The translations under genes and the position numbers were made by a program. Positions 3,257 through 23,341 of a DNA stretch of 32,425 nt are shown in pieces; the stretch's first letter is position 1; each line of letters starts with the position of its first letter. The notes below the pieces were generated by a model. That model was not told the origin of the DNA. It saw nothing but the letters and a program-made list of their open reading frames with translations, and did no database searches. The DNA comes from Serendipita indica DSM 11827 (taxonomy: Eukaryota; Basidiomycota; Agaricomycetes; Sebacinales; Serendipitaceae): contig CAJVGD010000026.1 of NCBI GenBank assembly GCA_910890315.1, positions 1-32,425 on the forward strand, written 5' to 3'.

Positions 3257-4138
3257 GCCTCATGTGGTTCTGGCTTCCAACGACCCTGACATTGGGATGG
3301 ACAGTGATTTCAGGGTATCCGCATTGAAACTGACCTCGAGATTTCATATGAATCGAATGGAGTTGCGGGCTATGTCGAAGGAATCCTGCTCGTCAATGGA
3401 GTGCGAATTGTGAGCTCGTCAGGACCAGGTGTAGTATGATATTCACTATCCATAAGGTCCAAAAAATAGGATAAAGGTGTGTCGGGCAGCCTAGAACACA
3501 TATTCAGCGGTAGAGCCCAAATTAAGACGACAAGAATCTGGCGAATAATAAGATTGAATTAGGGAAGCCAGTGAGAAAGGATAAACTGATAGAGGAGCCA
3601 AGGAAACCGGCACCTAGCTGAGGCCTCTTAAACACGACTTCTCGTGAGACCTTCATGCCAAGATCGTCATCCTGGCGCAATCAGATGCACCACGTGACCT
3701 CCAATAAGCAATTCTTCTTTGAATAATTGTCCGCCGCCAACATACCTGGATAGTGAAAGAAGGAGCTAAGTTGGGGTAGGTCAACCAGTGGATATTCTCC
3801 TGGAGCAGGAGGCGATAGACTTACTGTGATTTATGACTCGATAGATCCTGCATATAGATAAGACATGTCAAGGAGGTAAAGAATCACTTGAATTGCACGC
3901 CATCTTCGTTGCGGGTCTAGCTGTCTATTACCTCTTGGACGTCGCCTCATCGTCTTTACTGTTACTGACGCTCTGTACGTTATACTCTTGGCTGGTGCTT
4001 CCTCTTGTGGGGCACAATGAGAATTGAAACGGCGCTATCGGGGATAATTTATCATTAGATTGCGGTTGGATCTCGACAGGTCTGTGGAGGATACCACACC
4101 GTGTTCCTGCTTGTACCAACCTTGGACTCGTCCTCAGC
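3257..4138. other. Intergenic spacer between P450 copies 1 and 2
   Basis: No gene seen. The first part is old duplicated 3' flank: a stretch at about 3320-3360 (GCATTGAAACTGACC, then GAATCGAATGG) recurs at about 6238-6278 behind copy 2. The last 60 bases are the 5' leader of copy 2, ending in GTCCTCAGCATGG, which is shared with copy 3. Confidence 0.6.
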
Positions 4139-6183
4139 ATGGAAAATATCCAGGCATTGCTATCAAACGCGACTCCAGTCCAGTGGGGGGCTGCAGCGGC
4201 GGCTGTCATCTCCCTCGGGCTCGTCTATGCAACATCACGAAAGACATACGGCTCAGGCCGACATTATCCACCAGGACCGCCCAAGCTTCTTCTCATCGGA
4301 AATGCGCACAACTTTCCTGTGGATAACTGGGCCGTCGTGTTCAACGAATGGCAAAAGCTCTACGGTGAACTAAAGGGCAGTCCGTTTGAAATGGGTCTAA
4401 CAGGTTGAATAGGGGACATAATCCACATACAACTTCCCGGAACCTCTTTTGTTATCGTCAATTCTTTTGAAATCGCACAAGAACTATTCAATAAGCGGGC
4501 AAAGTTTAATTCAGACCGAAATGTTGGTCACATGATTATGAAACTGTGCGTGATGGCCAAGGAAATCCTTCAACGTGCTGAATTTCCATAGTATGGGCTG
4601 GGAATGGACACCTATATTCAGAAACGCCGATATCGTTCACAGCACCGAGCGAACAATGTTCAAACGTGGGATCGGTCCAACAAAGATGCCGTTGAAAGAT
4701 CCTCTCATTGAAAGTCATACCCAGCAACTCGTTCTCGATTTACAAAGGATTAAAGGAAACCCAAGAAATACAATAGTAAAGTACGTTTACCAAGCTCATA
4801 GTTGCTCATAGCTTACAGTTGCTGAAAGTATCATTGGCATGACTATCATCGAGCTCGCTTACGGCCGTGGCATTGTAAAAGATCATGGAGTGGAGTTGAC
4901 TGCACTTAATGTAGAAGCGATGAGACTCTTGAATCAAGCCGTCGTGACAGTATGGGCTGTGGATCTTTTCCCTCTGCGTGAGTCGAATACAATCCCATAA
5001 ACCTCATCGAGCCATTACAGTTCGTTTCTGGCCTAGTTGGATGCCAGGAGGACAATTTAAGTGGGTAATTGTTTTTGTCATGCCTCTAGTCCTCATACAT
5101 ACTGTAGACGGCATGGTGCATACAGCAAGCAGCTTGTCGACCGTATTCGGGAATGGCCTTTTCAGATGGCCATCGAACGTCATGTCAGTAATTTGAAGGC
5201 TTTAGTTAATCTTTTACCTCATCAAGTGGCAGAAAGCCGGAACTCTTGGCCACTGCCTCGCTGACGATCTTATCAACGAGTTTGGTACACGGTTTGAAGT
5301 TCAAGACACGCTAGCCTCTCTCTATCTAGGTATCAGGCTTTTCACTCAGCTTTCCATTCTGACTGATTCTCAGCCGGTGTTGATACTGTAATGAACTTGA
5401 GTGACGCAGTCATCTATTTACTTCTTTCAACAGACATCCACAGTGGTTGTCCAGTTTCTACATGCCATGTTTGTTTTCCCGGAAATCGCAAAAGGTGCAA
5501 GCAGAGATTGACTCTGTTATTGGTCGGGAGCGACTACTGAGTGAAAGATCGTGCTGATCTCCCTATACCAATGCCGTCTGGAAAGAATCGCTGCGGCTCA
5601 AATGTGCCGCGCCCGTGGGCGCTCCTCGTTCGAACATGCACGATGAAACAATCAACGGTTACTTTATCCCTAAAGGCTCCATTATAAATTCCAATTTCGG
5701 TATGTTAGACCCGCTATAATGAATGTTTGATGACCATCGTAGGCTTCATGCTCAATAATCCAAAGATATGGGGAGACCCGGAAATCTTTAGACCAGAGCG
5801 TTTTCTCTCAGCCGAGGCCAGTGCTCTGCCAGATCCCACTGTTCTCATCTTTGGATTTGGAGCGAGGTCTGTTAATTTATTAGATGCATTCGACCTACTC
5901 AGCCACTCTAGAATTTGTCCAGGAATGTATTTTGCTGATCGTACTGGGTTTCACATGGCGGTTTCGACGATGGCATTGTTCGATATCAAGCCTCTACCCG
6001 GAGAGTTGGTTCCGCTATACACGGAGGTTGAATACACGAAAACTCTTTTCCGGTGAGCATGGTAGCAAGCCGAGTTGTTCGTATTCACGATTATACAGAC
6101 TTCCCGTCAAGTTCGATTGCAGTTTTGCTCCGAGGGATAGCAAAGCCACTCATCTCTTATCCTCCCTGGCATTGGGCTATTGA
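4139..6183 (+). pseudogene. Cytochrome P450, tandem copy 2 (frame-broken)
   Basis: The exon plan matches copy 3. The anchor exon starts with MENIQALLSNATPVQWG and carries the PPGPPKLLLIGN hinge. Next come GDIIHIQLPG, the TERTMFKRGIG C-helix region, ELAYGRGIVKDHG, FWPSWMPGGQF, the AGVDT I-helix split by an intron, ExxR (KESLR), and FRPERFL. The heme loop FGFGAR|ICPGMYFA is also split by an intron. The end reads LPVKFDCSFAPRDSKA. Relative to copy 3, about two bases are missing near 5493, two near 5540 and one near 5564, all in the exon between the I-helix and ExxR. Outside that 75-base stretch no break was found and all splice sites are usable. It is either a recent pseudogene or a good gene with a badly read patch. 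Heme-thiolate monooxygenases of this kind sit on the ER membrane. Confidence 0.7.
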
Positions 6184-6918
6184 AGCTATAGCTAGCTGAA
6201 CGAATGAATTGGGACGGACGGGCTTTTCGGAGTATACGCATTGAAACTGAACTTGTGATGTCCTTTGAATCGAATGGGTGTGCTTGATTATGTAGTGCGA
6301 ATGGTGGAATTCTCGGAGTCGAGTAGCCACGCACTTTCTAATGGCAAATTAAGAATAGAGATAGGTTGATGCAGCCCAGAAAGTGAAGCAAGTCAACCTC
6401 TAACACCCCTACTACATTGTGGCGGGCATGGAACAAACTAGCATCAATATGATCGAATCACGGCGACATATAACCTGCTTTGAAGACGCCTATGTTGTTC
6501 AATCAAGAGGACAGGATCATTCGAGCAATCTCATACAGCTATTCAGAAGACTCGAATCATAGTGAAAGCTTACTCCTCATAAAAAGGATTGAGGAACTGA
6601 CGCCAAACTACCGATACCTCTTAGACTCGACTTCGCTCAGATGCCCCTTCACCAAGATCGCCAAGCCTCCAACTGCTTCAACAAATTTAATGAAACGACC
6701 ACCAAGAAGCGTTCTTTTGGAAAGCTTTGCTGGCATCCCACCATGAAGGCATCAAGATGCAAACCTCGGGCTCAAATCAACCTCCTATCGTGAATACTTT
6801 GATCAACAGACTGCGGCAGGATCTCTAGTGGCCCTGTTGGGCTCACAATCTGGATTGCCGGTTATGGACCAACCCTGTCCCACATGTCGCCCCTTCGCCC
6901 CTTGGACTTGTCCTCAGC
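6184..6918. other. Intergenic spacer between P450 copies 2 and 3
   Basis: No gene seen. It starts with 3' flank shared with copy 1 (about 6238-6278) and ends with a 5' leader (CCTTGGACT, then GTCCTCAGCATGG) shared with copy 2. An open frame at 6480-6746 has no recognisable motif. Confidence 0.55.
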
Positions 6919-8972
6919 ATGGAAGGCATCAAGACGCTCGTATCGAGAGTGACTCTAGTCCAGTTGGGAGCAGCAGCGGCGGCAGTCGTCTCGGTCGGGC
7001 TGGCCTGCGCGGCATCGAGAAGGGCTTACCGTTCAGGCCGAACCTATCCGCCAGGTCCTCCGCGACTACCGTTGCTGGGGAACGCGCACAACTTTCCGAT
7101 GGAGGATTGGGCTGTCGTCTTCAATGAATGGGGAAAACTCTATGGCAAGTGAGATAACAGCCCGTTTACATGCCTCTAACAAGTTGAATAGGTGACATAG
7201 TATATGTGCAACTCCCAGGAGTGTCCTTCTATATCATCAATAGTCTGGATGTTGCCCAAGAACTCCTCAACAAGCGCGCAAAATTCAATTCGGACAGAAG
7301 AATAGGTTACATGATTATGCAACTGTAAGTGAAAGCTTCGAAGTACGCCTCTTAAATCCTGACCCTCCATAGTATGGGCTGGAATTGGTCGCCCGCGTTC
7401 ATCAATGCCGACATAGTCCATGGTACAGAGCGAACAATGTTCAGACGTGGTATCGGGCCCACAAAGATGCCACTCAAAGATCCTCTTATCGAAAGGAATG
7501 CACAGCAGTTTGTCCTCGACTTGCAACAACTCAAAGGGAATCCAAAGGAGACGGTTACAAAGTGCGTCTACTATGCTCTACATACCAAGCTGATTCAGGT
7601 GAAGCATTATGGGCATGACTATCATCGAACTCGCTTATGGGCATGGTATCGTGAAGGATCACGGCGCAGAGATGATTGCACTCAATTTAGAAGCAATCAA
7701 ACTTTTGGATGAAGCACTCCTGACTGTATGGGCTGTGGACTTGATCCCGCTGCGTGAGTCCAAATTATTCATGGTTCTCCTCATTGAACCGCCATCTAAA
7801 GTTCGTTTTTGGCCAAGTTGGATGCCGGGAGGACAATTCAAGTATGTGACCGCTTGCGTCAAATCTCTTATGCTCAGACATGCTATAGGCGGCATGGTGC
7901 ATACAGCAAGCGGCTCGTCGACTGCATTCGTGAATGGCCTTTTCAGATGGCTGTCGAGCGTCATGTAAGTTGCTTCAACACTCCGTCTGACTCATATCTC
8001 ACATAGTACTAGAAAGCCGGAACTCTCGACCACTGTCTGGCTGACGACCTCATCAATGAATTTGGTACTCCATTTGAAGTTCAGGATACGTTAGCCAATC
8101 TCTACTTCGGTACGAGGGTTGAATCTTGCTCTTCGATTCTGACTCGCTTTCAGCTGGCGTTGATACTGTACAAAACTTGTGTCACCTAGTCATCCACTGA
8201 CTTCCTTCCACAGACATCTACCGTGATAATCCGGTTTCTACATGCCATGTTTCTATTTCCGGAGATTGCAAAAAAGATACAAGCTGAGATCGACTCCGTT
8301 ATTGGCCGCGATCGACTACCGAGGGTGACAGATCGTGCTGACCTCCCTTACACCAACGCCGTCTGGAAAGAATCACTTCGGTTCAATTCCGCCGTGCCTC
8401 TGGCTATTCCTCATTCGAACAGGCACGACGAAACGATCAACGGCTACTTTATACCAAAGGGCTCCTTGATAAACCCAAATTTCGGTATGTTCGACCATCT
8501 ATGATGAGTGGTTTGATAATTTCCCGCAGGTTTTATGCTCAGCGATCCGAGGATATGGGGGACCCAGAAATCTTTAGACCGGAGCGTTTCTTATCATCCG
8601 AGGCCAGCAAGCTGCCGGACCCTACCGTCACCATCTTTGGATTCGGACCAAGGTAATTTACATGCCTTATACTCATTCTGCGTGCTCAGTAACTTCAGAA
8701 TCTGCCCGGGAATGTATTTTTGCTGACCGTGCCGGGTTTCACATGACGGCTACTACTATAGCATTATTCAATATCGACCCTTTACCAGGAGAGTCGGTTC
8801 CCTTATACACAGAGGTTCAGTACACGAAAAATGTTCTCCGGTACGCCTAATAAGCAGTCAAGGCTGCTCGTATTGACGATTATACAGGCTTCCAGTCAAA
8901 TTCGATTGCATGTTTACCCCGAGGGATGGCCAAGCCGTTCATCTGTTATCATCAATCGCATTGAATCAATGA
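6919..8972 (+). CDS. Cytochrome P450, tandem copy 3 (OrdA-like, best-preserved)
   Basis: Twelve exons read 6919-7144, 7192-7324, 7373-7561, 7605-7753, 7802-7841, 7889-7964, 8013-8109, 8154-8167, 8214-8484, 8530-8652, 8699-8840 and 8888-8972, giving 1545 bases or about 514 residues, normal for a microsomal P450. Visible parts are an N-terminal anchor (GAAAAAVVSVGLACAA), a proline hinge (YPPGPPRLPLLGN), the I-helix AGVDTT spanning two introns, ExxR (KESLR), the PERF region (RPERFLS), heme loop FGFGPR|ICPGMYF with its cysteine ligand, and a C-terminal LPVKFDC strand. The first intron has a GC donor (gcaagt). A base seems missing in the G run near 8561 and one extra in the T run near 8717. The two cancel, but the heme loop between them is out of frame, so they are more likely read errors than real. 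The C-helix Trp is replaced by Arg. It lies tail-to-tail with the dioxygenase gene, 92 bases away. Confidence 0.8.
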
Positions 8973-14914: not shown

Positions 14915-15275
14915 ACATGGTGGTTCACGTCGTCGCTCAATACCGGTGGAAGAGATAATGACTTGTATGTGGATGTGTATCCGGACGTTGACGAAAGGGA
15001 ATCTAGCGAGAATGTAGGTGGGTTGAGGGAAACGCGATTAGGTCGGTACGACGGATGGCTCTGATCAATGAAACCTGTGTATCGTTACTTTCCCGTGTTT
15101 ACTCTCGTTTCCATTGGAGGTGTCAGGAGCAGCCGCGTTCTCGATTTTCGTTGCGAAGGTTGTCGGCGAGATATAATTAGGTGATTTAGCGAATCAGCAT
15201 AAATAGAATGCCGGTTGGAATCCGTCACTTCGAGGTGCGGACGGCGCATGGCTAATTGTGGATCGTCGTCGTCGG
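14915..15275. other. Upstream region of small-protein gene A
   Basis: No gene. It holds the 3' end of the membrane-protein gene and the distal promoter of gene A. AATCCGTCACTTCGAGG at about 15219 resembles GGAGTCCGTC, which lies 25-50 bases upstream of the TATA boxes of genes B and E. Confidence 0.4.
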
Positions 15276-15283
15276 TATAAATA
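15276..15283 (+). promoter_or_regulatory. TATA box of gene A
   Basis: TATAAATA followed by GTCGGCCATCG, 89 bases before the ATG. The same TATAA(A/G)TAGTCG(G/A)CCA block precedes genes B and E. Confidence 0.65.
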
Positions 15284-15364
15284 GTCGGCCATCGTGGGTC
15301 CAATGAGACCTTATCTCTTCGACCTCTCTTCTTCGACACTCGTCTCCGTTCCTCGTTATCGACT

Positions 15365-15844
15365 ATGCTTCAGCAGCAGCAGACTATCGATCAGGGTACG
15401 TAGCTTGCTTCTCCCCAACTACGACTTGGACCCTGACGGCTCGTCCTAAATGCAGCGCAAGCCAACACCAGCGTCGATATCAGCGCGAAGAATGTCGTAT
15501 CCCAGCAACCAGGCGCAAAATCTATGTCGCTTTCGGGAGAGGACAATAACCCCATGCGTCTTCGCGGTGGAGATGGCCATCACCCCGTTGTCGCATGTCT
15601 CTGCATATGCTGTATCTGTGAGTAATACAATCTGCCCTCAAACTGGGATTCTATCCCCCGAAGAGGGAGTAGTGTCCTTCGTCTGAACGCTGGTTTCCTG
15701 GAATGATGGGTATTGACTGTGTCGATCAGGCTGTGGATTGGAGGAGCTTTGCTGCCTAGAGGCGATCGATGACTGCTTCGCAATGTGTAAGTGGGTCTAG
15801 CGCTCAGATAAACGTGATGACTTACGCACCCATTAGGTTGCTAG
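15365..15844 (+). CDS. Small RLRGG/cysteine-tail protein, copy A (85 aa)
   Basis: Exons 15365-15395, 15456-15617, 15730-15786 and 15837-15844 join in frame to an 85-residue protein. It starts MLQQQQTIDQAQ, has the family core VVSQQPGAKSMSLSGED then NNPMRLRGG (about residues 41-49), and a tail rich in cysteine (CLCICCICC, ELCCLEAIDDCFAMCC). There is no signal peptide. The soluble Gln-rich head and Cys-packed C-terminus resemble CYSTM-like proteins, thought to attach to membranes through the tail; that likeness is inferred by eye. If the last donor is not used, the protein ends MCKWV at 15800 instead. It is the only whole member with this longer tail. Phase-1 introns after residue 10 and inside the Cys tail are at the same places in all copies, which shows common descent. 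Function unknown. Confidence 0.7.
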
Positions 15845-16313
15845 ATATACCATCAACGTTGCCCCGTAAATCATTCTTTATCATATCTGTTGAATCAAAC
15901 TCGTTTGAAATATTTGTTCTGGTTTTGAAGTGTTTCTTCTGTCGTCATTCTCCTAAATTCGGGATCTTCGCTCGGTAACTTTGTCGAACGCTTGTGAGCC
16001 TTGTACCGTATCAAGCGGGGAATAGTGGCACAAATGGTGTTATTGGATGCTTACTTGGGCGGTTACCTCCATTGATTGAAAGCTTTGCAACATAGAATTG
16101 CAATATAGTAGACAGTTCGCCAACCCGATGCGGAGATACAGAAGGCCCAGCCTAAACTCGATTATAACCGCTTCTAAAGAAGATAATCTAGTTGGCAGAC
16201 GGAGAAAGGTCTAATTCTAAGCCGGAGTACCCAGTCCTGCTTTCAATTGTGGCTGGTTTTCCAATCCTGCGCGATACTGTCAGTCCTTCATATCATAGTA
16301 TCAAGGCTGATGA
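15845..16313. other. Spacer downstream of gene A
   Basis: No gene seen. AT-rich with no strong repeats. The matching interval behind relic A' is only about 65-80 bases, so either about 400 bases were inserted here or lost there. Confidence 0.4.
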
Positions 16314-16628
16314 TCAATTTATTTTAAAAGTATACTGAGTAGAGAGCCTAGAAGCCGCTTGAACTTCGCTAGACTGGTGAGAATCCATTCGGTTAGCCAT
16401 TTGATGAATGATGATCAATACACCACACGGTTTGAGAATCAAGTATGCTACGAAAGCGTGCCATAACTCGTCTGCGGGGCGTCCTTCAGTAACAAAATCT
16501 ACCACGGGGGCGAAAGTAGGAGGACAAAGACCCAGAAATAAAAGTTCCCATCGTTTATCGTGATTATTTCGGATATAAACGATTCGATCATCTCTGTCGG
16601 CAGCCCGCACGGAGTCACTCGATTGCAA
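16314..16628 (-). CDS. Hypothetical minus-strand frame downstream of gene A
   Basis: An open frame of about 104 codons on the minus strand with no good ATG at its start, so at best an internal or last exon. It contains KRWELLFLGLCPP, DFVTEGRPADELWHAF and a hydrophobic run LILKPCGVLIIIHQ. I do not recognise it. A diverged copy lies at about 21235-21430 behind relic A', with two in-frame stops. The two stretches are duplicated DNA, so their likeness does not by itself prove coding. The frame could equally be unused sequence. Confidence 0.25.
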   Translation of the reverse strand: MQSSDSVRAADRDDRIVYIRNNHDKRWELLFLGLCPPTFAPVVDFVTEGRPADELWHAFVAYLILKPCGVLIIIHQMANRMDSHQSSEVQAASRLSTQYTFKIN

Positions 16629-16926
16629 GCTGGGTTGACATAATATTACAGCTCTAGGCTACTAAAGAACCGAGGGTGCCTTTCCATGCTGACACTGTAA
16701 CCACGGCTGCCCACCTGTTCCATCAACACTTAGAAGCCACTCTTTTGTCAACTCAGTCGCAATATGCTGGGGGTGGTGACATCGAACATACTGGCCATGG
16801 TTGCTTCGGCAAGCACGACGCACGCTTCAACGTCCCACAACAGATATCCTATTCATGAAGGACTCTCCTACAAATAAGCAAAGATATCCTGTTTGACTGC
16901 ACACAGTTCAACGAAGCGGGACAACA
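16629..16926. other. Spacer left of the inverted-repeat element
   Basis: No gene or repeat recognised; a 60-codon plus-strand frame (16676-16858) has no motif. Confidence 0.4.
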
Positions 16927-17140
16927 TACAGTGACCACATCAAGTGTTCACGCGTGTGCCACCCGTCACCCGCTTCCTAATTTGTGAGCGAACAGATAGC
17001 TATAAAATATTCATAAATTTAAGAAATGTATTTCAGCTTCTTATCTACTAAATCGTTGACTTTTAACCCAAATCATGCAAGTAAAGCGATCAGAAGAGAA
17101 TTTCTACGAAAATCACTGCAAATGAACATTTCTGTGCCGT
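16927..17140 (+). repeat. Left terminal inverted repeat
   Basis: It pairs with the reverse complement of 18226-18438. By eye most positions match, with a few short indels. It begins (TA)CAGTGACCACATC. Confidence 0.7.
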
Positions 17141-18225
17141 TGCTTACTTGACCAAGCTCTTCTGCGCACCAAAAGCAGCCTGTTTCCCCGCGGATGTGCT
17201 CCGAGTAAGCTTCTTGTAATAGTTCTTTAGTAGATTGTTCCACTCCACCTAAGTTTCGGACCTTGGCTTGTCTATGATCAACAGTAGGTCCCAGAAGCGT
17301 TGAGGGATCCTCACGGTGGTGTTTCGTGGGATTGAGGTTGAGGGTTGGGCAGGGCAGCTTCATTCTGAGATTACTTTGAGCCCGAACAAGGTCTGTGACG
17401 AGGTTGGAGGTATGCTTGGGTATAATTCTTACTATAGAAGGAAATTAAGGCAGAGAATGCCAAGCCTGGCCGCAGAATGTGCCAATTTCTGGTGGATTAG
17501 GGTGGTAGACTGATAATGATTCATAACATCCTCGATCTTTACCATTATACCAAGACATACACCACGTGTGTACCCTTTAATCATGATGCTGCTGCCGCTG
17601 CCTTTGACTCTTTCCCTGACCTTGCATGGCACATGAGGTGCGTTCTTGATCCCCCATGCCCGCTTGCTCCTATCCAAGTCAAAATGCATAATGAAGGTCT
17701 TTTGGAAAAATTCAACGTATTCCCAGTTCTTAGAGGTCTATTCGTAGGACTGCTTCCTGCAATTAAGATGGGAGAGCTGCGCAAGCCTCAGAGAAGCGGC
17801 ATTTTGGACTTGGTGCGGGCCACAGATACTTTATAGACAGTTTCATTACAAACTTTAAATGTTATTACTTTGAAATTAGCAGCTCTATGCAGTTCACAAG
17901 TCGTCACAGTCTTGCTTGAGATTCCGGTGTGTTACTATCAGGCCTTTAAGCGGGTTTGGCGCGCTCGCTTTGAGATATTGACTCTCTTTGTAACTATTCC
18001 CATTATCTGGATTAGTATGGCGAGAGATTTACTGGCGTCATGCACCCAATGGTGCACTTGTAGCACTATAGCGGTTTGAGCCCTCTGACCAGTTGAGAGC
18101 ATCTGCAGCATCAATTAACACGTCCAGATAGTTTTAATGGTCTTTAAATATGATTTTATTACTCATTTCAATCTAGCCTGGTGTTTAGTTGCTCAAGATC
18201 AATCTCGAGACGGAGGTCGAGCGAT

Positions 18226-18438
18226 CTGCACAGTAATGTTCATTTGGAGTGATTTTCGTAGAAATTCTTTTCTGACTGCTTCAGTCTCTTATTTCGCCCT
18301 CAAATTCAATCAATTTGTAGATAAGAAGCCAATCTACATTTCTTAAATTCATCGAGACTTTACATGTATTCGTTAGCCTACAAATGGTGAAATGGGTGGC
18401 GGGTGGCACATGTGTGAACACTTGATGTGGTCACTGTA
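18226..18438 (-). repeat. Right terminal inverted repeat
   Basis: Reverse complement of the left arm, ending GATGTGGTCACTG(TA). The inner end is near CACAGTAATGTTCATTTGGAG. Confidence 0.7.
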
Positions 18439-18945
18439 CGAGGCTGCACCAGGTGGACACCTCGGACCACTGAGAAAATGTGCATAGCCGCGCCATTTCA
18501 CTCGGAGATTGTCCTGATTTAAGCAACCGAGTCAGACTCGACGTCCTCAAATTAACCAGCCCAGTGCCTAGCGTCAAGACCACCGCATTTGGGGACGCCA
18601 CTCCATCTCCACCGAATAACCCATTCTATCTTAACTAGTATCATACCGTTGACATCACACGAGGGACACGTGCATCACCTGCACGCCAGAGAGTACCCTA
18701 GGCCCGCTTACCAGTAGAACTCGAACAATGCCCCCAAGATTCCAGCTCGATTTCATGTATTACCTGTTAGCGAAAGCAAATTCAAATTCAAATTCTCTTT
18801 CCCTCTCTCTCCCACACACAATCTCTCTCTCCATGCTGGCACCGCTGGCACTGCCGACATCGGATTAAGACGCAAGAAATACAACTAGAGATATGATTAA
18901 GGAGGCGACCGGAGTCCGTCACATGAAATTATGGTTCGTGGCCAG
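18439..18945. other. Upstream region of gene B
   Basis: No gene. It contains three AAATTC hexamers (18778-18795), then a pyrimidine-rich tract (about 18795-18832). CATGCTGGCACCGCTGGCA follows at 18832-18850 and is nearly repeated upstream of gene E (about 21518). GGAGTCCGTC at 18911 is also shared with E (about 21639). These look like duplicated promoter parts. Confidence 0.5.
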
Positions 18946-18953
18946 TATAAGTA
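18946..18953 (+). promoter_or_regulatory. TATA box of gene B
   Basis: CAGTATAAGTAGTCGACCACTG, with TATAAGTA 77 bases before the ATG; nearly identical to the E promoter. Confidence 0.65.
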
Positions 18954-19022
18954 GTCGACCACTGTGCATCCAAGGATCAATATCTCTACCAACTTCTCCA
19001 CTTACCAACCCGGTCGCGACAG

Positions 19023-19535
19023 ATGTTCCTGCATAAGCAGCAGACTGAGCCAGGTGCGTTTCTTCTTTTCATTGATGACAATGGGATCTGATACATTGAC
19101 TTTAATATAGAACAGAGCAAGGACAGAAAAGACGTCGAAGTGCATGCAAGTCACGTGATATCCCGTCAACCAGGTCCAAAGTCGATGTCATTTTCTGAGC
19201 AGACGACCAGCCCCATGCGTCTACGTGGCGGCTGTTGCACTGTCTGTTGTGAGTAAACTTCCGTGCTGCTCAAGTTTCCCTGGACACCTCCGAGTAGCAA
19301 CGTTCGATCCAGAATGTTATGAGGGGCTCCAAAGAAAGGAGAAATTGAAGCATTTCCTCTCGGCTCTCCAAAAGGGGGGAAAGCAATGCTCTTAAGGGGC
19401 TGTCTCTTTGTTGAATCTTATTTCGTCCAGCTAGCTGCCAAGGAATACTGACTAGATCACTTATTAGGCTGCTGCCCTAATCCATTTGAGAAACTTTGCG
19501 ACTGTCTTTTTGACTGGCTACCTAAATGCAAATGA
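19023..19535 (+). CDS. Small RLRGG/cysteine-tail protein, copy B (78 aa)
   Basis: Exons 19023-19053, 19111-19248 and 19468-19535 join to 237 bases, 78 residues. The head is MFLHKQQTEPEQSKDRKDVE, the core HASHVISRQPGPKSMSF and SPMRLRGG. The tail is CCTVCCCCPNPFEKLCDCLF and then DWLPKCK. RLRGG is followed directly by CC. Intron 2 (19249-19467) is long for this genome at 219 bases. Phase-1 joints agree with the other copies. Closest relative is E, with shared QQT(I)EPE(Q/R)S, and the two promoters match over about 60 bases. No signal peptide. Function unknown. Confidence 0.75.
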
Positions 19536-20156
19536 TCCTGCTTGGGTAGGGTATGAACTCCCCCTCGACAGTCTGCGACTGGCTAGATGTGCAGCTGCCT
19601 CGCTCTGAAACTTGATAAAATAACGCTCAACTCAGATCTGACTTCTATTTGAATCTTGTAACAATGTCATGCCTTCCACGACCCATCCTAATATATATAG
19701 TATTTCCATTCGGGCACTCAGCCAGTTGTAAAGTACTCATAATTCACTAAAAGACGTAGTCTAATGGTTTCTGGGTGTGGGGGAAAGGCTTTCCATAAGC
19801 CAGACGGTAGCTTGAAGCATGATTTATCACAGATCCTCTAATACGTCCATTGTTTGGAGGTCAAGTGGTTCTGGGTCTAAATCTACATGATGAGTGACCA
19901 TTTATTGATTCTCATTTGCTTATTACAAGCATCTCTCCTGGATATCCTACCTAGAATCATTCCCTTCCTTGCTGGGCCGGCCACCCGTGCGAGTCAACAC
20001 CGGCCCATTCCAGAACTGGGCAACGCCGTACATGCCGGCCTTGATTACACTGCCAGTATAGAGCCTCGCCATAATCTGGCCTTTTGAGTTAAGAAGGCAT
20101 GAACCTGGACCAACTCGCGAGACGATTGAGGCTGACAGGACTTTCATAATCTGCCA
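19536..20156. other. Spacer between B and C, with C upstream module
   Basis: No supported gene. GAGTCAACACCGGCCCATTC followed by CAGAACTGGG at about 19992-20021 matches blocks upstream of E (GAGTCGACGCCAGCC, CCAGAACCAAG, from about 21477) and F (GAGTCAATACCAGCCC, CTAGAACCAAG, from about 22689). It lies about 165 bases before the TATA box. Open frames here (19887-20087 plus, 19947-20207 minus) look like shadows. Confidence 0.45.
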
Positions 20157-20164
20157 TATAAGAA
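20157..20164 (+). promoter_or_regulatory. TATA box of gene C
   Basis: TATAAGAAGTTGACCGCGG, 73 bases before the ATG; a weaker match to the family promoter. Confidence 0.5.
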
Positions 20165-20229
20165 GTTGACCGCGGTGCACTGAAGGTTTATTATCCTTAC
20201 TACTCAATATACTTGGACGTCTCCCACAT

Positions 20230-20652
20230 ATGCTTCCGCACAGGCAACAATTGGAGTCGGGTGGGCTTCGCTATTTCCCATTGACCATGACAAGACCTGA
20301 TGAGTTGTCTGTGATTCAGGGCAAATCAAAATCAGTATCGATGGTTACATGTACCCAAGTCACGTAGTGTCGTATCAGCCAGGCGCAAATATGACGATCT
20401 GTCAAGAGATAACACCTACACGTCTGCGTGGTGGAGGTGCATGCTTGCCTTTTCTCAAACTTTGCTGCTGTGAGTATTTCTGTGCATTTATTTGGTCCTT
20501 CAGAGGTTTAAGGAAGCTGTCTCGGGTGTGTGGAGATGTTGAGCTCAGATGTCTCCGTCCAGAGGTCCTCGTTTGCAGAATATTATTGACCATTTAAATC
20601 AGGCTGCATTTATTTGTGCTTGGAGACTTGGGAACTTTGCGATGATCCTTAG
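20230..20652 (+). CDS. Small RLRGG/cysteine-tail protein, copy C (76 aa)
   Basis: Exons 20230-20260, 20320-20469 and 20603-20652 join to 231 bases, 76 residues. Head MLPHRQQLESGQIKISIDGY, core PSHVVSYQPGANMTICQE, then TPTRLRGG, tail GACLPFLKLCCCCIYLC and LETWELCDDP. The KSMS of the core is replaced by NMTI and the M before RLRGG by T. The last six residues are acidic. Sister of F: exon 1, intron 2 and the 3' flank to about 20819 all align with F. No signal peptide, function unknown. Confidence 0.7.
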
Positions 20653-20830
20653 GAATGACGAATTTTGTCTGGGTGCTCTGTCTTCGGCTCGGACATCAAG
20701 CAGTGCTTATGCATTTGACACTGCCCAAGACTGACTTATGAATCGCTTCACTGATCAGTTGTATCGCATGTCGCCTAGTATGACGCCTCTACTCGATATT
20801 AATTTTTGTGATCTGTACACTTGGCCACAG

Positions 20831-21093
20831 TCCATGTACGTCGCTTTCGGGAGAGGACAGTAATCCCATGCGTCTTCGCGGCGGAAATGTCCATTATCCT
20901 ATTGCCGCATGTCTCTGCATGTTTGCATCTGTGAGTACTCCAAACTGCCCTCAGGCTGGGATTCTGTCTCCCAAAGAGGAATGTCCTTTATCTGAACGCC
21001 GGTTTCCTGGAATGACGGATATTAGATGTGTAGGTCAGGTTGTGGATTGGAGGAGCTTTGCTGTCTAGAGGCGATCGACGACTGCTTCGCAAT
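20831..21093 (+). pseudogene. Relic of copy A (A'), 5'-truncated
   Basis: It matches gene A from just before SLSGED through the Cys-tail exon and the intron between (donor gtgagt at about 20931, acceptor ggtcag at 21038). It includes NPMRLRGG, GLEELCCLEAIDDCFAM and most of intron 2. The first exon, start codon and half of exon 2 are missing. The left edge lies against the end of the C 3' flank. One base is lost in the first Cys cluster (CLCMF where A has CLCIC), so it could not encode the A-type tail. It is the left end of the second duplicated block. Confidence 0.75.
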
Positions 21094-21234
21094 GTGTAAG
21101 TGGGTCCGGATTCCATTCCAATCTCATATCACACAGTCAATGCTTGGGGTGAATATTTCCAGCTCATTGATTCAGATATTTCAAGTATACATTGAATAAA
21201 GAGTATAATGGCCATTTGAACTTCGCTAGAGAGG

Positions 21235-21430
21235 GGTAATTAACATGACCGACAAATACACATTTGTCGACTATACTTACAATGACTGCATCCTACATTT
21301 TTGGAATGAATTGTACTAAATGAACATCTCATAACTGATCCGTGCGGCGTTTCTCTAGATCTGCCACAAGGCGACAGTACCGATGGATAAAGAGAATCAA
21401 AGAGAAGAAATATCCTGTCGCACATTGTAG
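21235..21430 (-). pseudogene. Decayed copy of the frame at 16314-16628
   Basis: The minus-strand reading LVADLEKRRTDQL parallels VVDFVTEGRPADEL of the frame behind gene A, and DNA likeness extends on both sides (for example TTTGAACTTCGCTAGA at about 21216, against CTTGAACTTCGCTAGA at 16357). It has two in-frame stops. It marks the block duplication rather than a working gene. Confidence 0.4.
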
Positions 21431-21476
21431 ATAAATCCGTGTGGAGTCCACCCAGAACCCCGAGCTGGATCGAGTC

Positions 21477-21660
21477 GAGTCGACGCCAGCCGACTCCAGA
21501 ACCAAGTGTGCCTGTTCATGCTGGCACTGCTGGCACCTAAGTTCAGCGACATCTAGAACTAGATTCAGCTTTGATTTTCAAATATCCCAGAAGATACATA
21601 TCCAGACCAGCTCGAGAGATGGCCACGGAGGTGGACGGAGTCCGTCGTATGAATCTGTGG
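21477..21660. promoter_or_regulatory. Upstream module of gene E
   Basis: GAGTCGACGCCAGCC, then CCAGAACCAAG, CATGCTGGCACTGCTGGCA (about 21518-21536) and CGGAGTCCGTC (about 21638). Parts recur before B, C and F at similar distances from the TATA box. They may be activator sites or only duplicated DNA. Confidence 0.4.
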
Positions 21661-21671
21661 CTCATAGTCAG

Positions 21672-21679
21672 TATAAGTA
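21672..21679 (+). promoter_or_regulatory. TATA box of gene E
   Basis: CAGTATAAGTAGTCGGCCAC, with TATAAGTA 85 bases before the ATG. Confidence 0.65.
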
Positions 21680-21756
21680 GTCGGCCACTGTCCATCATGG
21701 ATCGATATTTCTACCAATTTCTCTACTTGGACACTTTCCCAACCTAGTTGCTCCGT

Positions 21757-22269
21757 ATGAAGCAGCAAACTATCGAGCCAGGTAAACTCTTTGCCTCATG
21801 AAAAATCTACAAATCTAACGAGTTGACTCTCACATAGAACGAAGTGAGGATAGCAAAGGTATCGATGATACCGACCTGCATGCAAACTGTGTAGTATCAA
21901 ACCAGCCAGGTGCAAAGTTTATGTCACTCTCTGAGAGGACCAACCCCATGCGTCTTCGTGGTGGCACAGACCCATGCACATGTTTGTTCATACTGTGCTT
22001 TTGTGAGCATTTTATAGCTTCCTCAAATTCTCTTGAGTGCGTTGAATGATGCGTATGCATCATTGAACGACCTGCCTGTTTCTCGCTGACAAGCCTGAAC
22101 CAAGCGGCTATCCGGACATGGACTCCACCATAATATTCCTTTTCGGCTTCTAGAAGCTCGGCACATTTAAAAAACCTAATTTTTTTAAAATCTAGACGTC
22201 TATAGAATGATACTGACACACCACTTAGGCTGCTGTCATTTCTGCGACGACATATGCGACGACCTCTAA
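21757..22269 (+). CDS. Small RLRGG/cysteine-tail protein, copy E (76 aa)
   Basis: Exons 21757-21781, 21838-22002 and 22229-22269 join to 231 bases, 76 residues. Head MKQQTIEPERSEDSKGID, core VVSNQPGAKFMSLSERTN and PMRLRGG, tail TDPCTCLFILCFCCCHFC then DDICDDL. The tail mixes cysteines with hydrophobic residues and ends acidic. Sister of B. Intron 2 is 226 bases and contains a perfect eight-base palindrome with a four-base loop (22044-22063). No signal peptide. Function unknown. Confidence 0.75.
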
Positions 22270-22680
22270 GAATGGTGAGATAATGGAGAGTGTTTTGTCT
22301 AGACTTGGCTTGGTCGGTGTGATACAGAACACACACTCTTGATAGCAACTAGAGACGCACTTTGTCTCACCACTCAACAAGATGTTGCCCATGTGTTATT
22401 CTTTCGTAATAGTTTTCGTGATTTTTTGCATCCCACAACTATGAAATGCAGTAATTGGATGGGACTAGGTACTTGTAGGAATCAATTCCACTTATCTCAG
22501 TATCATATTACCACATAATCGTTTCAGCTGAAGTGACTGCTTTCGTGCGCGCCCTGCCCCCTACCCTTATAAAATCACTTCTTGAGTAGGAATATTAGAA
22601 AGCCCTTTGAGAAGACTTCCGCCTATCATTCGTGTCAGCAGATTAGTATGTCCAGACTCACTTGCTCAATTGCTGGCTGG
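22270..22680. other. Spacer between E and F
   Basis: No gene seen. The minus-strand open frame 21830-22348 covers gene E on the other strand and is a shadow. Confidence 0.5.
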
Positions 22681-22866
22681 GTCACGTTGAGTCAATACCA
22701 GCCCGGTCTAGAACCAAGCCAGCCTGTCCATTCCGCAGTGCTGGCATCTAGTATCGCCGAAATTTCGCATTGAAGCTTCGTTAAAGTTATATTCTCTCGA
22801 AAGCGCAAATCTAGGCCCATTCGCAAGATTATAATTGGAGAGGCGAATGGAACATTTGATCTTCAG

Positions 22867-22874
22867 TATAAGTA
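22867..22874 (+). promoter_or_regulatory. TATA box of gene F
   Basis: TTCAGTATAAGTAGGCGATC, with TATAAGTA 71 bases before the ATG. The upstream module GAGTCAATACCAGCCC plus CTAGAACCAAG starts near 22689. Confidence 0.6.
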
Positions 22875-22937
22875 GGCGATCGCGATACATCAACAGGTCA
22901 TTCTCTGCTACTTGCTCTGATAGGATTACTGCTACGC

Positions 22938-23341
22938 ATGCTTCCGCACAGGCAACAGTCGAAGCCAGGTGGTGAGCATCGCCGTTTCCGATTGATGAGG
23001 ATCTAATGCAGGTTTCTGTTATTTAGAAACCAGTGGAAATGGCTATATACATCCGAGCCACATAGTGTCACATCAGCCAGGCGTGAAGTCCATGTCGCTC
23101 CTCAAGGAGGAGAGAATAGCTACGCGTCTGCGCGGAGGCATATGCTCATGCTTACTTTGCTGCTGTGAGTGTTTCTATGACTTAATCAGGTTTCTCTGGG
23201 CGCTTCAGGCCGTTGTTCAGGCCGTTGTGGCTTGGGACTTCTCCTCTTGGGGTCCTTGTTTGCAGAATATTATTGACCATATTATAATCAGGCTGCGTTT
23301 ACTTGTGCTTGGAGTCTTGGGAACTTTGTGATGAACCTTAG
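22938..23341 (+). CDS. Small RLRGG/cysteine-tail protein, copy F (72 aa)
   Basis: Exons 22938-22968, 23027-23164 and 23292-23341 join to 219 bases, 72 residues, the shortest member. Head MLPHRQQSKPETSGNGYIHP, core SHIVSHQPGVKSMSLLKE, then IATRLRGG, tail ICSCLLCCCCVYLCLESW and ELCDEP. The first seven residues equal those of C, and the downstream flank also aligns with C to about 23480. The frame is clean through all three exons. No signal peptide. Function unknown. Confidence 0.75.

Follow-up and report, generated by a model that had tools for sequence, protein, structure and literature searches.

A tandem array of small cysteine-tailed proteins with an invariant RLRGG motif in Serendipita indica

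What kind of protein is encoded by a row of tiny related genes in Serendipita indica, and what does the RLRGG motif that none of them has lost contribute to it? We addressed this question in a 32,425-nucleotide stretch of genomic DNA (the window). The reading that we prefer, with a probability of roughly one in two, is that the array encodes tandem-expanded, CYSTM-like small cytosolic proteins, which would be tail-anchored or S-acylated and would work in the manner of CYSTM stress proteins. The family of small proteins encoded here is compact and under constraint, and none of the searches described below gave it a name.

Gene models and organization of the array

The forward strand of the window contains, at positions 15365-23341, five intact spliced genes and one broken copy. 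Gene A (15365-15844; 85 residues) was modeled with exons at 15365-15395, 15456-15617, 15730-15786, and 15837-15844, of which the last exon (15837-15844) and the intron preceding it are tentative. The spliced models of the other genes comprise three exons each: gene B (19023-19535; 78 residues; exons 19023-19053, 19111-19248, and 19468-19535), gene C (20230-20652; 76 residues; exons 20230-20260, 20320-20469, and 20603-20652), gene D (21757-22269; 76 residues; exons 21757-21781, 21838-22002, and 22229-22269), and gene E (22938-23341; 72 residues; exons 22938-22968, 23027-23164, and 23292-23341). All 11 introns are of the GT-AG type and keep the frame. These models reproduced the lengths given in a preliminary description of the locus, which listed five unbroken genes of 72, 76, 76, 78, and 85 residues; the three-exon plan proposed there held for four genes and failed for gene A, which with only three exons would encode 87 residues ending in CKWV and requires an 8-base fourth exon for the 85-residue form. 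The single relic reported alongside them was also recovered, as a broken copy on the forward strand (20834-21106). It is a 5′-truncated duplicate of the 3′ half of gene A, with 84-89% identity in exon and intron stretches; it lacks QPG, and its exon 2 ends in a phase other than that of gene A.

Five TATA-containing elements on the forward strand recur 5′ of the intact genes, at 15273-15315 for gene A (TATAA at -89 from the ATG), 18943-18985 for gene B (-77), 20154-20196 for gene C (-73), 21669-21711 for gene D (-85), and 22864-22906 for gene E (-71). The likeness of these elements suggests that the cluster genes may be co-expressed. A bacterial promoter scan was discarded as not applicable to a fungus. 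Because the six related tandem copies have common splice positions and the upstream element, with introns that are alike in some pairs, the array is not a product of chance, and the original observation of a tandem small-protein array was thereby confirmed as real. Genome searches found the family only at this cluster and its second allele; lying at a single genomic location, the cluster could therefore be removed in one step.

Conserved motifs and selection

Six-frame motif searches located the M-RLRGG codons of genes A, B, and D at 15554-15571, 19215-19232, and 21948-21965, and the T-RLRGG codons of genes C and E at 20418-20435 and 23122-23139, all on the forward strand. Six-frame translation of the window yielded six matches to R[LMIVF]RGG, each within the cluster and each reading RLRGG, preceded, as described previously, by M (genes A, B, and D and the broken copy) or T (genes C and E). 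Both QPG and RLRGG are invariant in the five intact genes. The core (H)(V/I)(V/I)SxQPG stood with respect to QPG in all five genes, and its His is restricted to genes B, C, and E (Asn in gene A and Cys in gene D); the alignment showed the conserved head element as VVSxQPG, with VIS in gene B and IVS in gene E, followed by a variable linker. Shuffling of the 61 gap-free alignment columns produced a run of five invariant columns in 4.7% of cases, and thus the unbroken run alone is only modestly unusual.

The codons of RLRGG vary synonymously among the paralogs (pS 0.52, pN 0). Across QPG and RLRGG together, which limit codon tests to three and five codons, respectively, pN was 0 with pS of about 0.5, such that the codon-level dN/dS check suggested for the five copies gave no sign of near-neutral evolution over either motif. 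The whole-protein pN/pS of 0.45 showed that constraint extends over the entire protein; the proposal of selection was therefore supported, with constraint that is not restricted to the two motifs.

The window is an unmerged haplotig, the second allele of which lies on contig C17, and allelic divergence across the compared region was 0.3-1.4% per block. Comparison of the five genes between the alleles revealed six synonymous and no replacement substitutions (P of about 3.5e-4 if random), together with one in-frame Gly insertion adjoining RLRGG. The proteins of genes A, C, and D and the coding sequence of gene B are identical between the alleles, and gene E encodes 73 residues in the C17 allele, with one extra Gly after RLRGG. 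All five reading frames are intact in both alleles, and the broken copy is likewise present in C17. The excess of synonymous over replacement substitutions indicated purifying selection on the five genes, which is supported between alleles and between paralogs. Separately, one of the alleles carries, between genes A and B, an insertion that resembles a mobile element.

Resemblance to CYSTM proteins

The five proteins divide into a hydrophilic head (GRAVY -0.33 to -1.16) and a hydrophobic tail (GRAVY +0.43 to +1.25). Structural prediction by AlphaFold2, applied to exon-2 pieces only, yielded no confident structure (mean pLDDT 59.2; pTM 0.14) and spoke neither for nor against a strand in the conserved head element. 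Each tail of 24-36 residues holds 7-11 Cys, in agreement with the clustered tail cysteines described at the outset, whereas the heads have almost none (0, 0, 1, 1, and 0 in the five proteins). By eye, runs of three to four Cys are found in four tails, and an acidic residue follows the Cys cluster in all five proteins. The best 19-residue hydropathy window lies within or overlaps the tail in every protein, with values of 1.79-2.27 in four of them and 0.87 in gene B, the weakly hydrophobic tail of which contains a Pro-Asn-Pro stretch.

A published account describes CYSTM (PF12734) as a C-terminal membrane helix with 5-6 Cys, 3-4 of them consecutive, followed by an acidic residue, and ascribes to the family an N-terminal cytosolic beta-strand element, a variable linker, membrane location, and stress induction, with yeast YDL012C and MNC1 as examples (PMC10217909; Venancio and Aravind, 2010, as cited therein). 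Relative to that description, the array proteins are alike in small size, a short conserved N-terminal element, a variable linker, and a Cys run preceding an acidic residue. They differ in the invariant RLRGG before the tail and the VSxQPG-like core, in holding 7-11 rather than 5-6 Cys, in the absence of a three-Cys run from gene A and of a clear membrane stretch from gene B, and in the lack of a profile match. The CYSTM resemblance noted earlier thus stood for the layout and not for the profile, as none of the five members matched PF12734 at E-values up to 10 and a repeat search with three full proteins and two tails gave no match. This negative result is weak, because a CYSTM-like tail encoded elsewhere in the same genome also scored below the cut-off of 25.2 bits (13.9 bits as a piece and 16.2 bits in the genome search). 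By eye, a CYSTM-like gene of this genome likewise has a Gln/Pro-rich head with QPG.

Gene models, conservation, selection, and tail composition form the observed basis of the CYSTM-like reading. From them we infer an arrangement in which a polar, probably disordered head containing several Gln would present the short V-V-S-x-Q-P-G or a close element, and a linker ending in the basic RLRGG would lead into the hydrophobic Cys-rich tail. Either a tail-anchor mode or S-acylation of its cysteines would hold the tail at a membrane, and the two arginines directly before the tail would favor the cytosolic side. Co-expression and a stress role would likewise be inferred features of such proteins.

Searches with the array proteins returned no match above cut-off in Pfam, NCBIfam, or PDB, and a PDB profile search returned none at E-values up to 10. 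A phage hyaluronidase model in Pfam matched gene A (E-value 0.0011; 19.3 bits against a cut-off of 27; one of the five members), but this match, which involves the head, was rejected as likely due to chance; one member at an E-value of 0.13 in NCBIfam was rejected, and none of seven stretches fitting the peptide pattern in a viral contig scan was confirmed by tblastn. In small basidiomycete proteins, a Cys tail may be preceded by a motif resembling MRMRGG. The pattern MRLRGG, with RLSGG also admitted, occurred at 12 places in the genome, eight in the cluster and its allele and four outside, and MRMRGG at one place; at none of these five outside places, two of which read RLSGG in the frame and strand of the match, is the motif preceded by QPG or followed by a Cys-rich tail. 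The looser RLRGG pattern occurred at 366 places, as compared with 544 for a reversed control. Among the matches listed in open-licence literature, titles and abstract beginnings on CYSTM and fungi contained no description of the family, queries for RLRGG with cysteine-rich or basidiomycete terms listed no RLRGG, and those for CYSTM with mushroom terms listed no CYSTM. MRLRGG occurred there solely in a robot context, and the matches to MRMRGG, RLRGGG, and MRLRG were unrelated by title.

Alternative explanations

Tandem-amplified, metallothionein-like metal-binding peptides are an unlikely alternative, although CC and CxC are clustered in the tails and tandem amplification fits metal tolerance genes. 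Fungal metallothioneins are small, Cys-rich, and present in tandem copies, as are the array proteins; unlike them, the array proteins have hydrophobic and aromatic tails, in each of which F, W, Y, I, L, V, and M together account for 7-11 residues, and long Cys-poor heads. Such residues are unusual in metallothioneins, and the near-restriction of cysteines to the tail points in the same direction. The metal-binding role suggested initially is therefore disfavored by the hydrophobic tails.

Another explanation, which we regard as improbable, takes RLRGG as a ubiquitin-tail-like site cut after its second Gly by a ZUFSP-type deubiquitinase. The array would then be a natural non-ubiquitin substrate class of this enzyme, with RLRGG as a cut-to-release switch: cleavage would free a soluble head with a ubiquitin-like end from the membrane tail. 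According to one report, the ZUP1 core is active on an RLRGG peptide and inactive on ubiquitin itself, the fungal relative Mug105 cleaves RLRGG-AMC, and the ability to cut after partial ubiquitin is discussed as unexplained (PMC8776766); these peptide substrates share the five residues RLRGG with the array proteins. RLRGG is also the end of the polyubiquitin repeats in the same genome, and in the array it is invariant despite synonymous codon variation, yet a five-residue match could arise by chance. The 43-46 residues preceding it are too short for ubiquitin, none of the five proteins matched the Pfam ubiquitin profile, and, unlike ubiquitin, the array proteins have no ubiquitin fold before RLRGG and a Cys-rich tail after it. 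In one allele, moreover, the supposed cleavage site has an additional Gly.

As for the enzyme, the genome appears to encode a ZUFSP-type deubiquitinase, as suggested by a C78 peptidase match above cut-off (64.3 bits), a 32-residue piece with HQGHSRT matching PDB ZUFSP chains (E-values 4.9e-6 and 3e-5), and, by eye, a C-x2-C ... H-x3-H stretch upstream. However, the C78 match crosses four in-frame stops, which were taken as introns without proof; other pieces of the gene matched weakly (PDB E-values 0.23 and 0.75-1.3; Pfam 0.0002, 0.025, and none), and nothing links the candidate to the cluster. Open-licence literature contained nothing on E1 with short ubiquitin-tail peptides. If cleavage occurred, a ubiquitin tail would be in use as a site of proteolysis in proteins that are not ubiquitin-like, and the ZUFSP core would gain a physiological substrate and a reason why such cores act on RLRGG without ubiquitin; if RLRGG is not cut, the array would be an unremarkable CYSTM-like cluster that has diverged.

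It is hardly likely that the genes encode secreted or processed peptides resembling effectors or pheromone precursors, even though the products are small, Cys-rich, and tandem, with heads and tails that diverge between copies. Plain hydropathy, used in place of a dedicated predictor, agreed with the earlier statement that signal peptides are lacking: the N-terminus has no hydrophobic stretch (best 11-residue hydropathy of -1.35 to 0.52 within the first 25 residues of the five proteins), and for this reason the secreted form of the suggested peptide precursor is disfavored. Basidiomycete pheromone precursors end in a C-terminal CaaX, whereas the five models end in CC, CK, CDDP, CDDL, and CDEP, none a typical CaaX end; the low allelic divergence is also unlike a mating locus. 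Finally, a decaying gene family without function is very improbable, since the broken copy and the mobile-element-like insertion in one of the alleles are set against the 6:0 ratio of synonymous to replacement substitutions and five reading frames kept in both alleles.

A constrained tandem family of small proteins

The small-protein genes of the window form a real tandem family, and this family is constrained. Six-frame reading of the window for R[LMIVF]RGG returned six occurrences, every one of which was RLRGG on the + strand inside the cluster (15365-23341), with QPG upstream in five. The five intact genes (A, 15365-15844; B, 19023-19535; C, 20230-20652; D, 21757-22269; E, 22938-23341), spliced by eye at GT-AG sites with positions matched among the copies, gave open models of 85, 78, 76, 76, and 72 residues, the same lengths as in the preliminary description; gene A yields 85 residues with a fourth exon and 87 without it. 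Their alignment contained 17 invariant columns, including S26, QPG, M34, RLRGG, and four cysteines. A TATA-containing element was located upstream of all five genes (-71 to -89), and some gene pairs shared intron sequence. The sixth, broken copy (20834-21106, + strand) is a 5'-truncated duplicate of the 3' half of gene A, with an identity of 84-89% by stretch and an exon-2 end in a phase unlike that of gene A.

The second allele of the cluster, on contig C17 of the same assembly, differed in the five coding regions by six substitutions, all synonymous (three in A, one each in C, D, and E, that in E read by eye from the alignment, and none in B); given a synonymous share of ~0.27 expected at random, P was ~3.5e-4 for six of six. 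The introns differed at 19 of 1159 aligned columns, and the gene E alleles by one in-frame Gly codon insertion adjoining RLRGG. Among the paralogs, whose synonymous sites are near saturation, pN/pS was 0.45 overall, 0.49 in the head (before RLRGG), and 0.44 in the tail (after it), and was 0 over QPG and RLRGG, which span only 3 and 5 codons and in which synonymous codons vary (pS 0.51 and 0.52); the selection on these motifs proposed earlier is consistent with this ratio, far from 1. A run of five invariant columns appeared in 4.7% of shuffles (61 gap-free columns).

A 44-residue query matched five places in contig C26, whose positions 1-32425 are the window, and five in C17, and none elsewhere in the genome (24.7 Mb, 55 contigs) at E up to 10. 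A 62-residue gene C query gave 12 matches, each within the cluster or the allelic copy, and missed gene B; both counts are lower bounds, and split genes can escape six-frame searches. None of the five motif matches outside the cluster and allele had the family context.

Resemblance to CYSTM proteins

The five proteins combine a polar head with a hydrophobic, Cys-rich tail. For these proteins neither Pfam nor NCBIfam returned a match above the cut-off, the PDB returned none at all, and no confident fold was predicted for the exon-2 pieces. The resemblance of the tail to the cysteine-rich transmembrane module (CYSTM; PF12734) held in part: the layout resembles in kind what PMC10217909 describes for CYSTM proteins, whereas there is no profile match, cysteines are more numerous than described there, gene A lacks the Cys run, and the hydrophobic segment of gene B is weak. 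The negative profile result weighs little, because a CYSTM-like gene on contig C2 also scored below the CYSTM cut-off of 25.2 bits (16.2 bits in the genome search; 13.9 bits for a 35-residue piece spliced by eye). This gene lies on the - strand ~2 kb from the contig start and has a Gln/Pro-rich head (by eye) and a Cys-rich tail.

The most probable reading, to which we give about one half, is a CYSTM-like small protein, tail-anchored or S-acylated, possibly a new variant of the CYSTM kind rather than a proven member. If expressed, its head would face the cytosol, and its tail would serve as anchor or be S-acylated.

RLRGG as a possible deubiquitinase cut site

Alternatively, RLRGG, the end of ubiquitin, might be a built-in cut site at which a ZUFSP-type deubiquitinase (C78 peptidase) frees the head from the membrane tail. 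Polyubiquitin of the same genome carries RLRGG at 228-base spacing, and, according to PMC8776766, the ZUP1 core is active on an RLRGG peptide and inactive on ubiquitin; its authors name, as one possible role, the cutting of ubiquitin chains that are misfolded or fragmented. The genome probably encodes such an enzyme, judging from a C78 match at C40:1131943-1132572 (64.3 bits, above the cut-off, with four stops within). Its pieces contain GCGY, YRN, and HQGHSRT, with a Cys/His stretch upstream; the HQGHSRT piece matched 7oje_A (E 4.9e-6) and human ZUP1 (6ei1; E 3e-5), two other pieces matched ZUFSP chains only weakly (E 0.23 and 0.75-1.3), and in Pfam three pieces gave C78 at 0.0002, 0.025, and none. 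However, nothing ties this gene to the RLRGG cluster, and we consider a cut site very improbable. Counting slightly against it, Mug105, the fission-yeast relative, cleaves not only RLRGG-AMC but also K48 ubiquitin chains (PMC8776766).

Second haplotype and genomic setting

From 2768 onward, the window and the compared part of C17 were 97.9-99.2% identical in alignment, with substitutions of 0.3-1.4% per block (blocks up to 2 kb). By this alignment, positions 2768-32425 are an unmerged second haplotype of the C17 region, so the genes there are counted twice in the assembly. Between genes A and B, a 1.5-kb element (16930-18436) has terminal inverted repeats of ~210 nt (78% complementary), CAGTG ends, and a TA duplication (both by eye); it is absent from the C17 allele, with partial copies on C2 and C10, and is presumably a non-autonomous Tc1/mariner-type insertion. 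Only C17 carries, between genes D and E (at window 22578-22586), a further 770 bp flanked on either side by CTTGAG (by eye), a presence/absence polymorphism.

P450, Band 7, and PP2C domains were found in three of the 10 open frames scanned, the P450 domain at 2295-2849. Together with the introns, these domains are compatible with a basidiomycete origin. Positions 4120-6174 and 6900-8963, ~75% identical to one another as seen via C17, form an apparent tandem duplication, perhaps of P450 genes.
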